From Ignavibacteria bacterium (GTDB lineage: Bacteria > Bacteroidota > Ignavibacteria > Ignavibacteriales > Ignavibacteriaceae), in the NCBI GenBank assembly GCA_030684555.1, contig JAUXVN010000075.1, positions 1 to 54,207 on the forward strand: a DNA stretch of 54,207 bases, given 5' to 3'. Numbering within the stretch: position 1 is the stretch's first letter; every line of letters starts with the position of its first letter. Positions 8,823 through 13,190 of the stretch are shown piece by piece. The notes below the pieces were generated by a model. That model did no database searches. It had not been told where the DNA came from and saw only the letters and a program-made list of their open reading frames with translations. Made by a program: the position numbers and the translations under genes.

Positions 8823-8928
8823 TGTCCAATGCTTATGAAAAACAAGAAATAATGGACAAGCTGCTTGGATAAATTAAGAAATTAGTTATATTTGTCCAAT
8901 AAACATCAATACTCATGAGCAATGGACA
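8823..8928. promoter_or_regulatory. two inverted-repeat operators for abiEi
   Basis: TGTCCAAT at 8823-8830 with AATGGACA at 8851-8858, and TGTCCAAT at 8893-8900 with AATGGACA at 8921-8928. Both copies have exactly 20 nt between the arms and the copies are 70 nt apart. The second right arm covers the AbiEi start codon. Known AbiEi proteins repress their own promoter by binding paired inverted repeats, so these are the likely operators. Confidence 0.65.
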
Positions 8929-9938
8929 AAGAAAAGGTTTTTATGGGACCAAGAGAAAAAGAAGTAATAAAAAGGGCAATAAAGAATCTTGAGGAAGAAA
9001 CCCATACCAGAGTTACGGCGGAAATATTTGAAAAAGATGTTGATGTCTTCATAAAGATTGATGAACATAATTTAGTATTTAATGCAGAAGTCAGGCTCTT
9101 TTTAAATAAAGCAAGGTTAGGGTTAGTCCTCAATCAAAAGAGAACCCATAGAGGAATACCTTTATTAATTACGGAGCATGTGAATCCGGAATTGATGATC
9201 CATTTGGTAAATAATGGAGTAAATTTCATAGATGCTGCAGGGAATGCATATATTAATGAACCACCTTTATTTATAAAGATTAAAGGTAATAAGCGAGAGG
9301 AAAATAAAAAGACAAAAAATATAGAAAGACCTTTTTATACCGCAGCCTTACAAACAATATTTACTATTTTATGTAATCCGGGAATAGAAACAAAACCCGT
9401 GCGCGAAATAGCAGAGTTAGCGGGAGTTGCTCATGGCACTGCCCACATCACGCTAAAAGAATTGGAACGGCAGGGCTACTTAATACTAAATAATCAGACC
9501 AGATTAATTAACAAAAAAGATTTATTAGAAAGATGGGTAGTCCTATACCCGGAAAAATTAAAACCAAAATATATTTTAGGAAAATACAAAGCAGAAAACG
9601 AACAAATTAATAATATAGATATATTAAATTTTGATGCGCTCTGGGGAGGAGAAGCGGCAGCGGCCAAATTAACAAATTATCTGCAGCCATTTATCTACAC
9701 CATATATATAGGTGACCGGCAGGGAGAATTTATTTTGAAAAACCGTTTAAAAAAACATCCGCAGGGAAATCTGGAATTGATAAAAAAATTCTGGAAATTT
9801 CAGAACAATGATTACAAGGGAATAACCCCGCCTATTTTAGTTTATGCTGATCTTTTATCGACCGGTGACCCACGTAATATAGAAACAGCACAAATAATTT
9901 ACGAGAAAGACATTGCTAGATATATCGAAAAAGATTGA
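8922..9938 (+). CDS. abiEi: AbiEi-family antitoxin / transcriptional regulator
   Basis: 338 residues. The middle contains a winged-helix segment (PVREIAELAGVAHGTAHITL, KELERQGYL, about residues 160-190), and the C-terminus shows NYLQPFIYTIYIGDRQGE and PPILVYADLLSTGDPRNIET, typical of AbiEi family proteins of type IV toxin-antitoxin systems. AbiEi represses the abiE promoter and counteracts AbiEii. Two operator-like repeats overlap its promoter and start codon. Only a remnant of the toxin gene follows, so the antitoxin appears orphaned. An alternative ATG at 8943 would skip the overlap with the operator. Confidence 0.82.
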   Translation: MDKEKVFMGPREKEVIKRAIKNLEEETHTRVTAEIFEKDVDVFIKIDEHNLVFNAEVRLFLNKARLGLVLNQKRTHRGIPLLITEHVNPELMIHLVNNGVNFIDAAGNAYINEPPLFIKIKGNKREENKKTKNIERPFYTAALQTIFTILCNPGIETKPVREIAELAGVAHGTAHITLKELERQGYLILNNQTRLINKKDLLERWVVLYPEKLKPKYILGKYKAENEQINNIDILNFDALWGGEAAAAKLTNYLQPFIYTIYIGDRQGEFILKNRLKKHPQGNLELIKKFWKFQNNDYKGITPPILVYADLLSTGDPRNIETAQIIYEKDIARYIEKD

Positions 9939-10090: not shown

Positions 10091-10681
10091 AAGCAGATCT
10101 CCAATTGTTAATGAAATTATAAACAATGATTCGCGGGGGTTGGTTTGATTGTTTTGGTAGGGTAGTAGCGGGATAATTAACGAAGAAAAGAAGTTAACTT
10201 CTCCTCCTTATTCTTATACCCATAAAACAAAAAAGCCCAGCGGAGGTGGCTGGACTTTGGGAAAGATTCACTATGGGGGTAAGCATAATGAATCGTGGTA
10301 TAAAATTAAAAACCTGATCGTAAAATGTCAAGATTTTTTTCTTAATGGGGGAAATAAAAAACCGCCCCAGTGTGTGGCTAAGGCGGCTATGATGTCACTA
10401 TTTATTTGGAGGTAAATAAATGATGGACTTGACTATAAAAAATAGTAATGGTAAGTTGACGGCGATTATATAAAATTAATTTCTATAATATTCTTCCAAG
10501 CGGTAGTGTTCAAAGTGGAATGGTGCAATGGAATAATAAAAATAATCTTTAGGATACGGTCTTCACATTTCTGCAGTAAATGCGGGGTAAAGAGTGTAGG
10601 GGTAAAATATTACTTAGCCGAGAGCTTGTCTTTTTGTAACGATACGACAAACATACCAACTAAACCCTTAGGAGCTATCCA
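10042..10681. other. long intergenic region with two minus-strand terminators
   Basis: No gene is seen. On the minus strand the hairpin 10232-10258 (AAAGTCCAGC / GCTGGGCTTT) is followed by a T run, and the hairpin 10362-10386 (CCGCC / GGCGG with an inner 3-bp stem) is followed by TTTTTTATTT. Both are shaped as Rho-independent terminators reading left, yet no minus-strand gene lies to their right before 13.2 kb, so a small RNA is possible. A Shine-Dalgarno AGGAG lies at about 10669, before the next gene. Confidence 0.5.
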
Positions 10682-12826
10682 ATGAAACAGCAGAAACCGG
10701 CACGAAAAAACTGGGTGCGTACTTTTGTTTTAGCTGTTGGCATTTACACCTCAGCACTACAAGCACAAGTAATCTCGGGGAGGGTAATAGACGGAATAGA
10801 CGGAACAGGAGTAGCAGGAGTGAACGTGAAAATAGTTACGACAAACCCCTGGACCAATTACTCAGTAACAAGCGGACCAAACGGAGAATTCTCATTCATA
10901 ACTGATGTTAAGGACGAAAATAATAATTCTACAAATACAACAATAGACGCAGACGTAACAAGCATATCATCAAAACCATACTTCACAATACAAAACAGAA
11001 ACGAACAAGACGCAAACATCACAATATACGATATACGAGGACAAAAAGTACGAAGCATAAACATGCCAATAACAAACGGAATAAACAACACACAATGGGA
11101 TGCAAAAAACGACAACGGACAAAAAGTAGGCACAGGAATATACATATCATTAATACAAATAGGAAAAACAAACATACCAAAAAAATTCATGATAATAAAC
11201 GGAGAAACAGAAGGACAACCAAGAAATAATATTACAACAAAAACAAACAATACAACATTCAACAAAACAACAGAAATCATAGATGTAAGACTAAAATTAA
11301 CAGATCCACAAGGAATATATGAAAACAGCATAGACGACTTCACATGCGAAGGAGACACCACATACAATATAATTGCTCGACCAAAAAAAGACATAGAAAA
11401 CCAATTCCCAGCAAAAGGACAACTAATAAAAACATTCAGCAACATAACAGAATACATACTAGGAGTAGACATAAACCAACACCTACCATCAAACAAACCA
11501 ACATACCCAATACAAATAAACACAACAACACTACCAACAAACATAAAAGAAAACGTCACACAAGCAATGAACACAATAGACAGCCTAACAGAAAAAGACT
11601 TCACAACAGAAGGAAACGGAAACATAGAACTATTCGTTGTAAACAACGACACAACAAAACCATTAATGACACAAAACATATACGGAGAATGGACAGAAAA
11701 CGATACAACAGGACACCCAACAAAAGGAAAAATATACATCAACACAAGTCATGATTTAAATTCTACAGAATTGATTGCATACATTACAAAAACATTACAA
11801 AAACTCATACTAAACACAAACAAAAACTCATACAACAAAAAACATAATCTATACCCAAAAGGCACACAAAAAATAAGCAAAGACGAAAAAGAATTATTAA
11901 ACTTCCAATTTAACAGAAGAGAAACAACACAATACAACAACAGCGAAACAACACCAACTGAAAATATAAATATAATAGGAACAATAACAATACCAGACAC
12001 ACTAACAAGAACACTAAGAGCAGTAAGAAACGCAATAATACACCTAAACGAAGAAACAGACACAACAGACGCAAGCGGAAAATACATATTCACAAATGTT
12101 ACTAAAGGAACAAAAAACTTAACAATAGACAGCACAATGACTGATGGAAAAAGCGATTTCCACCAATACGAAGAAGAAGGAATAAACACAAACAACGACC
12201 AAGAAATAAACAAAACAATGTTCCCAAAAATAAACCTGATATACAACTTCGTAGAAATAAACACAATATTAGATTTATGGAAATACAACAGCTTTGCAAA
12301 CGAATATCCTGACCGAATATATTACAAACCAAATTATTCTATGCAAATAAATATTGACCCGACGAACGCGCCAGCGGGTTGGATAGAACAAACGACAAAC
12401 GCAATAAACGACTGGAACAACCAAGCAAAAACAGAACTATTCAAAATAAACGGAACAGAAGAAGGAAAAACCACGGTAACAGTACACTACGAAGGAAACG
12501 GAGGACCAAACATAACAAATAATCTCGGAACAACAAAATTACGCACATGGAGTGGAATAACACCAACAAGATTCGAAATATACCTAAACACAGGACAACA
12601 AATGACAACAATGGAAGCATACAGAACAATGGCACACGAACTACTAAGAACAATATACGGTGCAAGTCTAGGACAATACTACATGTCATACCGACCAGAA
12701 CACATAGGATCCCTCGGAAGAGGACCACCATACACAATATCATACGACGAAGCAACACTAGCATACATAACAAAAAACATACCGGCGGGGATAAGGATAA
12801 ATAATTACAAGGATAAAGTATGGTAG
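10682..12826 (+). CDS. exported protein with T-poor codons and degenerate peptidase motif
   Basis: 714 residues. A signal peptide ends near ALQA-Q (residue 29). Then come a carboxypeptidase-regulatory-like segment (ISGRVIDGIDGTGVAGVNVK), a FlgD-like segment near 100-165 (TIYDIRGQKVRSIN, GTGIYISLIQ), a second regulatory-like segment near 430-480, and a C-terminal region like a matrixin-type metallopeptidase. There MAHELLRTIYG stands where HExxH is expected: His652-Glu653 are kept but the second His is Arg656. Composition is striking: codons end almost always in A or C (ATA, ACA, CTA, CCA, AAC); bases 11521-11580 contain 34 A, 16 C, 5 G, 5 T. Short stretches of normal codons interrupt this. AGGAG lies before the ATG. 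Function unknown; probably surface or secreted. Confidence 0.8.
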   Translation: MKQQKPARKNWVRTFVLAVGIYTSALQAQVISGRVIDGIDGTGVAGVNVKIVTTNPWTNYSVTSGPNGEFSFITDVKDENNNSTNTTIDADVTSISSKPYFTIQNRNEQDANITIYDIRGQKVRSINMPITNGINNTQWDAKNDNGQKVGTGIYISLIQIGKTNIPKKFMIINGETEGQPRNNITTKTNNTTFNKTTEIIDVRLKLTDPQGIYENSIDDFTCEGDTTYNIIARPKKDIENQFPAKGQLIKTFSNITEYILGVDINQHLPSNKPTYPIQINTTTLPTNIKENVTQAMNTIDSLTEKDFTTEGNGNIELFVVNNDTTKPLMTQNIYGEWTENDTTGHPTKGKIYINTSHDLNSTELIAYITKTLQKLILNTNKNSYNKKHNLYPKGTQKISKDEKELLNFQFNRRETTQYNNSETTPTENINIIGTITIPDTLTRTLRAVRNAIIHLNEETDTTDASGKYIFTNVTKGTKNLTIDSTMTDGKSDFHQYEEEGINTNNDQEINKTMFPKINLIYNFVEINTILDLWKYNSFANEYPDRIYYKPNYSMQINIDPTNAPAGWIEQTTNAINDWNNQAKTELFKINGTEEGKTTVTVHYEGNGGPNITNNLGTTKLRTWSGITPTRFEIYLNTGQQMTTMEAYRTMAHELLRTIYGASLGQYYMSYRPEHIGSLGRGPPYTISYDEATLAYITKNIPAGIRINNYKDKVW

Positions 12827-12983
12827 AAGAGATGGATGGGAGCGCTTTTCTGTTAATCAAAAAAATATGCTTAGTTTTGGAATAAAATATTTCAAATGAA
12901 AATAGTAAAACTGAATCCGAAGAAATCACTTAATAAAGCATTCTTAAAACAGAGACCGTTAAGAAGCGAGATTTTAAGGATTT

Positions 12984-13190
12984 GGATTGAAAATGAATTT
13001 GTTTGGTTCGAAAGTATTTTAATCGGTTTGGAAAATATTTAAATTGGATTGGAATTCAATTCAATCGGTTAGAAAATAAGTTCAATCGGTTTGGAAATGA
13101 ATTTGTTTGGTTTCAAAATAAATTTTTTGGTTTGGAAATAATTTAAAACGGTTTCGATAGTGAGTTGTTTGGTTTCATTATGAATTATTT
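12984..13190. repeat. degenerate 21-bp tandem repeat, about 10 units
   Basis: Ten successive units of 20-21 bp each begin GG(T/A)T(T/C) and share a GGTTTGGAAATNAATTT-like core, for example at 13089 and 13130. Stops occur in all frames over the array, so it is not coding. The period equals two helical turns, giving phased A/T tracts that could bend DNA. It lies between the T-poor gene and the tRNA terminator. Confidence 0.75.

Follow-up and report, generated by a model that had tools for sequence, protein, structure and literature searches.

A predicted secreted-protein gene written almost without T-ending codons in an Ignavibacteria bacterium, and genes with the same spelling in a second bacterium and an archaeon

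Proteins carrying T9SS-type sorting or FlgD Ig domains (PF18962, TIGR04183, PF13860) are known from Bacteroidota, and two relatives found in the same order as the organism studied here (loci L011 and L012) combine a signal-peptide-like start with a CarboxypepD_reg-like domain and a FlgD/T9SS-type domain. The protein described here starts in the same way, but its sorting-type domain is internal, and its gene is spelled almost only with codons ending in A or C, whereas L011 and L012 have ordinary spelling (T at third codon positions, T3, of.41 and.35) and 41 genes of its own genome with a T9SS-type tail average a T3 of.44 in the body and.39 in the tail. An A- and C-rich, T- and G-poor coding strand is a feature of the strand-asymmetric vertebrate mitochondrial genes; here, however, single genes in ordinary chromosomes are affected, with A far above C at fourfold sites. 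Near-identical copies with dense, in-frame, amino-acid-changing patches and a swapped module, as found below in an archaeon, recall the vls-type antigenic variation loci (Borreliella vlsE and silent cassettes; PMC3828179), although no expression site with silent cassettes was shown in the archaeon and, to our knowledge, no counterpart of the spelling rule has been described for vls. Variable patches in a conserved frame are also shared with diversity-generating retroelements (DGRs), a possibility that we rejected because the archaeal variable patches change all bases, not adenines only, and also length, and because RVT_1 was matched in only 1 of 3 carrier genomes, on another contig than the gene (C75, own genome), and in neither of the other two.

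We analysed a window of 54,207 nucleotides of an Ignavibacteria bacterium (assembly GCA_030684555.1, contig JAUXVN010000075.1, positions 1 to 54,207 of the forward strand), in which an earlier note, made from the sequence alone, had pointed to a 714-aa gene at 10682-12826 (+) with T-poor, A/C-ending codons. The observation made in that note is confirmed. Bases 11521-11580 contain 34 A, 16 C, 5 G and 5 T, exactly as it had stated, and the third positions of the gene are A.598, C.242, G.063 and T.097, against.339/.130/.127/.404 in the ORFs of at least 200 aa of the first 20 sampled stretches of the same genome plus the window. The AT skew reaches +0.585 in 500-base windows. The short normal stretches that had been noted at 11749-11780 and 12330-12370 exist, and there are others. 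The long ORFs on the other strand, of 295, 179 and 162 aa, exist as well, and we take them as by-products of the composition.

To investigate whether other genes of the genome share this bias, the condition under which the note would have withdrawn its reading, we enlarged the sample to the window plus 40 stretches, 770 kb without N of the 4.34-Mb genome, the other 82% being left out of the composition scan. Among 443 other ORFs of at least 200 aa, T3 averages.402 (sd.035, minimum.247) and third-position A+C averages.472 (maximum.612), against.097 and.840 in the gene, and none of the 443 shows the bias. In one window of 60 consecutive codons of the gene every third position is A or C, whereas the best such window in any other ORF of at least 200 aa of the sample has 82%; it lies in an ordinary 861-aa gene with a T9SS-type tail (stretch L162, 8198-10783, own genome C105), whose last codons are locally A/C-spelled.

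A likelihood segmentation placed the A/C-spelled segment at codons 22-700 (10745-12781), with A or C in 86% of third positions, and left an ordinary-codon start at 10682-10744 (codons 1-21, the first part of a signal-peptide-like stretch) and an ordinary-codon end at 12782-12826 (the last 14 codons and the stop). A ribosome-binding-site-like AGGAG, inferred from the sequence, lies at 10670-10674, 7 bases before the ATG. Inside the segment, ordinary-codon patches occur at 11747-11785 and, as the longest one with approximate limits, at 12280-12390, the latter over a motif (IDPTNAPAGW) whose archaeal counterpart is A/C-spelled. The exceptions are clustered: codons 26-695 hold 74 T/G-ending codons (ATG and TGG left out) with 27 adjacent pairs, against a mean of 8.0 and a maximum of 17 in 5000 shuffles.

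The rule followed by the segment is A if a synonymous A exists, otherwise C. Fourfold sites are A in 87% (host 36%), Ile is ATA in 88% (28%), twofold purine sites are A in 98.5% (78%) and twofold pyrimidine sites are C in 79% (24%), while fourfold C, at 4%, lies below the 13% of the host. Leu uses CTN in 64% against 48%, so that the rule also reaches a synonymous first position and is a rule on bases, not on tRNA pairing. The protein follows, with more Thr, Asn and Ile and fewer Leu, Ser, Val and Phe than the genome. Translational selection for codons read without wobble (NNA by U34 and NNC by G34 tRNAs) would fit the third-position pattern, but Leu CTN is preferred over TTA although both can pair without wobble, ATA is preferred over ATC, and the EF-1alpha gene of the archaeal carrier does not share the pattern (T3.30); this explanation is therefore strongly disfavoured. 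We also considered an overlapping gene. The +2 frame is open over long stretches because T is missing at third positions (2 and 3 stops in the two archaeal genes tested, 17 in the window gene), but for the same reason it has few start codons (3, 2 and 7), and this reading was rejected.

We then asked whether the spelling occurs elsewhere. A DNA search with the gene over 164 genomes of the order brought up 13 genomes, the own one included, at E values up to 1e-3. As a detector of composition this search is useless, since the two halves of the gene do not find each other, and the lack of clustered hits is no evidence. Of 22 loci checked, only L048, found through the FlgD segment in a Melioribacteraceae MAG (genome G110), has a clearly T-poor 300-base window (10% T; the next lowest 18%). 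The gene there, L058:12373-14526(-), is of similar design and is A/C-spelled in codons 42-462 of its 717, ordinary before and after. A tandem CGTCTCACGT-like minisatellite lies upstream of it (L048 2172-2310, G110:C5) and, judged by its repetitive false ORF, perhaps again on another contig (L059 8165-8512, G110:C8). A scan of a collection described as holding one genome for each of 84,980 species for an A/C-spelled FlgD-domain motif gave 66 loci, all scored (frames under 80 codons received no window score), of which three carry the spelling: L092, from a Melioribacteraceae MAG, which carries the L048 match too (A or C at 76% of third positions, 97.5% in its best 80 codons), and two from the Woesearchaeota archaeon KatS3mg002 (96-97%, 100% in the best 80). 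The next locus reaches 72.5% in its best 80 codons.

The archaeal genome (G164) has three full copies with 2% T at third positions, at C12:24529-26031 (C12a), C12:26044-27564 (C12b) and C4:75023-76528 (C4a), and broken or partial copies at C12:24408-24515, C4:76545-79390 and C4:83628-85158. The copies lie in archaeal gene surroundings: the C4 clusters between an EF-1alpha gene (over the cut-off of the archaeal model) and a partial ORF best matched by the archaeal EF-2 model (below its cut-off), the C12 cluster between an Orc1/Cdc6-like ORF (below cut-off) and an ORF whose best model is the bacterial GldE (below cut-off). In 168 kb of this genome, 117 ORFs of at least 150 aa include 6 family ORFs with T3 of.02-.13; the next lowest have.15 and.19 with few C (.12,.10), and the rest lie at or above.19, up to.50 and one at.67.

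The spelling was compared with host usage in the window gene, in L058 (residues 35-465 of its 705-aa reading) and in the three full archaeal copies, in this order. Fourfold sites are A in.87/.72/.94-.97 (hosts.36/.25/.46), twofold Y sites are C in.79/.96/.945-.96 (.24/.40/.24), twofold R sites are A in.985/.88/1.0 (.78/.74/.77), Ile is ATA in.88/.875/.92-.93 (.28/.28/.65) and Leu is CTN in.64/.89/.86-.94 (.48/.43/.40). The host sets were ORFs of at least 200 aa of the sampled stretches; for G110 and the archaeon ORFs with T3 of.2 or less were dropped, and for the archaeon also those of.55 or more and stretch L139. The sampled ordinary genes of the hosts do not follow the rule.

Window and archaeal proteins are homologous at 23-30% identity in multiple alignments, far enough apart for an unkept third-position pattern to fade. 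They align in the N-terminal domain (BLASTP E 4e-5, single comparison) and in the C-terminal domain (E 6e-5). The L058 protein is only weakly similar (E 4e-4 to an archaeal copy, 0.15 to the window protein), its residues 18-230 are 33% identical over 213 residues to an ordinary-spelled protein in another genome of the order, and a profile comparison of its C-terminus with the window/archaeal C-terminal domain showed no relation, so that L058 is not shown to be in the same family over its whole length. The nearest hits of the window protein in 59 relatives, L011 and L012, match only its N-terminal part. Profile searches found the window/archaeal family in 1 of 391 genomes of the class, 1 of 395 of the phylum and 1 of 352 of the archaeal order, in each case the known carrier, although these searches start with a loose filter and may miss members, and the class and phylum sets overlap. 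No second copy was found by protein search in the own genome or in G110, and an uncalibrated search with a false-frame peptide found nothing else in the own genome. A search for related loci in genome contigs missed the archaeal genes that lie in that collection, so its negative result counts for little, and in viral contigs it found none. Protein searches in phages, plasmids and the PDB gave nothing, and a PDB profile search gave only two designed proteins at E about 6e-4, taken as chance.

The window protein has a CarboxypepD_reg domain at residues 31-73 (10772-10900; whole-protein E 1.9e-9) and a FlgD_ig/T9SS sorting-type Ig domain at residues 103-154 (10988-11143; FlgD_ig E 6e-7). On TIGR04183 (cut-off 23) the window protein scores 25.3, the archaeal L067 copy 28.3 and L058 18.5, below the cut-off; on PF18962 (cut-off 27) the archaeal copy scores 32.3, which makes a bacterial origin likely, while the window protein (21.8) and L058 (16.5) fall below. 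The other archaeal copy tested has no such hit. In contrast to T9SS cargo with a C-terminal sorting domain, the domain lies at residues 100-171 of 714 in the window protein and 164-227 of 506 in the archaeal copy. The C-terminal domain shared with the archaeal family (12119-12823) matches no family model. It contains HELLRTIYG (12635-12661), which resembles a degenerate metallopeptidase site but lacks the further histidines of the metzincin HExxHxxGxxH zinc site; there is no HE at that place in the four archaeal rows of the alignment, and the AlphaFold model, with a pLDDT of 35.5, is too poor to use.

To investigate how the rule behaves over short times, we compared the archaeal copies, which are near identical over long stretches and differ in dense patches; C12b has another FlgD module, itself A/C-spelled. 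Pairwise there are 36, 73 and 85 amino-acid-changing codon differences but only 4, 3 and 3 synonymous ones. All 4 synonymous columns among 403 constant codon columns have T in one copy and C in two, and one more such change (AAC to AAT) and one CCA to CCC are visible by eye in the fragment C4p. This small sample (4 of 4, chance 1 in 16) suggests that new mutations move towards T and that the rule is kept against them, or was brought in and is now eroding. Of the variable codons (ATG and TGG left out), 264 of 272 still end in A or C, and T/G-ending codons are not significantly enriched among them (8 of 272 against 18 of 1191, p.12). Nor do the ordinary patches of the window gene significantly match the archaeal variable sites (Fisher p.09; 27 of 225 circular shifts reach the overlap).

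The direction of these changes weakly disfavours strand-biased mutation in the present, one of the three causes that the earlier note had offered. Active local mutagenesis or editing in the present hosts (any base to A, T to C, on the sense strand), working in tracts and leaving unedited patches, would agree with the clustered exceptions and with borders inside the gene. It would also agree with the archaeal gene C4:80259-83528 (L139 259-3528), a cysteine-rich repeat protein gene (TIGR02232) between the A/C-spelled clusters and on the opposite strand, which is the most T-ending of the 117 ORFs (T3.67; G at twofold R sites.49 against.23) and so shares the bias of the DNA strand. However, fourfold C lies below the host average in the window gene (.04 against.13) and in the archaeal genes (.02-.04 against.08;.17 against.20 in L058), which simple deamination (T to C, G to A) does not give, and the DNA flanking the window gene is not T-poor in a 500-base profile and by eye. 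We regard this explanation as unlikely.

We next calculated mRNA folding energies per 150 nt. The window gene gave -7.9 kcal/mol against -18.0 (sd 1.0) for 30 host-usage recodings of the same protein, the L058 tract -11.2 against -18.6, C12a -3.9 against -13.1 and C4a -5.4 against -13.8, while 90 ordinary genes of the own genome average -26.0, the weakest being -20.6. The mRNA is nevertheless no less structured than synonymous permutations with the same codons (z 0.5, -0.15 and 0.8), and the L058 tract is more structured (z -4.3), so that only composition, not folding, is constrained.

Taken together, what the data show is that in the window gene, in the archaeal copies and in part of a gene of similar design in a second bacterium the coding strand is T- and G-poor whatever the codon usage of the host; all that concerns the cause is inferred. 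We tentatively favour, without proof of any mechanism, purifying selection on the base composition of the sense strand, most simply for an mRNA that is poor in U and G and so hardly folds and would offer few U-dependent processing sites. In this view the ordinary 5' ends, 3' ends and patches would be stretches brought in by recombination with ordinary DNA in a rare, horizontally moving family. Secretion is inferred from a signal-peptide-like start recognized by eye, and a role in surface or extracellular binding or adhesion, diversified in the archaeon by recombination between tandem copies, is likewise inference. Against selection on the transcript stand the opposite-strand archaeal gene, the archaeal copies with frameshifts or stops that still keep most of the pattern, and the end of the rule at codon 462 in L058.

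A close rival, which we consider possible but rather unlikely, is inheritance from an unsampled lineage or mobile element whose strand-biased mutation drives all its genes to this spelling, with copies that reached these hosts recently and now decay towards host usage. The very patchy occurrence, the gain of T in the archaeal copies, the ordinary ends that look like fusions with host DNA and the T9SS-type domain in an archaeon fit this idea, but a donor with this composition was not found in the scans made. Exact A/C-spelled Walker and PolB motifs in viral contigs gave 75 loci with 445 ORFs of at least 100 aa, none with the pattern (lowest T3.15, an ORF of A+C.78 with C above A), only three of the 66 genome loci from the FlgD-motif scan qualify, and the one viral locus does not. 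The N-terminal part of L058 is, in addition, nearest to an ordinary-spelled gene of the same order. A further, unlikely option is that the GT-rich template strand promotes recombination and so keeps gene conversion between copies high, serving diversification. The preference of RecA and Rad51 for GT repeats is stated in PMC5948810, whose reference list names Tracy et al. 1997 on GT-rich DNA, and the archaeon has tandem copies, a swapped FlgD module between otherwise near-identical copies and a fusion between subfamilies; the lack of a detected second copy in the own genome and in G110 speaks against it, and the preference for A over C is not required by it.

The interpretation in the earlier note, transfer from a very different host, strand-biased mutation or selection against T in the mRNA, is thus partly supported, its three options being narrowed but not decided. 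Horizontal movement is supported by the relative with the same spelling in an archaeon and by the sporadic distribution. Selection against T remains possible, but G is avoided too and A is preferred over C, so that this wording is too narrow. Codon usage is normally a property of the genome; here it is a property of certain genes that keep one extreme spelling in two bacteria and an archaeon while the related proteins have diverged to 23-30% identity, so that either a strong, unknown selection acts on the composition of one strand or an unsampled lineage or element with this spelling exists. It is tempting to speculate, at somewhat less than even odds, that a host-independent, gene-bound rule is actively kept in a mobile family of secreted proteins across Bacteria and Archaea by a force that reads the base composition of one strand, an mRNA-level or DNA-level requirement of a kind not yet described. 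Searches of open-licence literature on Woesearchaeota with codon usage, horizontal gene transfer and Ignavibacteria, on KatS3mg002, on T-poor or A/C-ending codons and on type IX secretion in Woesearchaeota returned no paper, and others listed mostly mitochondrial genome papers or papers on DGRs; the absence of the rule from print rests on these searches alone.

The surroundings of the gene would be compatible with a variable region at a tRNA. Upstream lie a type I restriction-modification methylase and specificity gene, an AbiEi-type gene and a PIN-domain gene, and downstream a tRNA-Arg and a DUF190 gene. The AbiEi-type gene (8922-9938; PF09952, E 1.8e-36) has no hit in PADLOC, and as the next ORF of at least 90 aa on that strand is the A/C gene, its usual toxin partner may be missing here. 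A protein encoded at 915-2165, near the HsdM and specificity genes, matches the PADLOC candidate defence model PDC-S54 (E 1.1e-150). Just after the A/C gene, non-coding DNA at 12963-13178 contains degenerate direct repeats with a 20-21 base spacing (eight overlapping registers; GGTTTGGAAATGAATTTGTTT-like).
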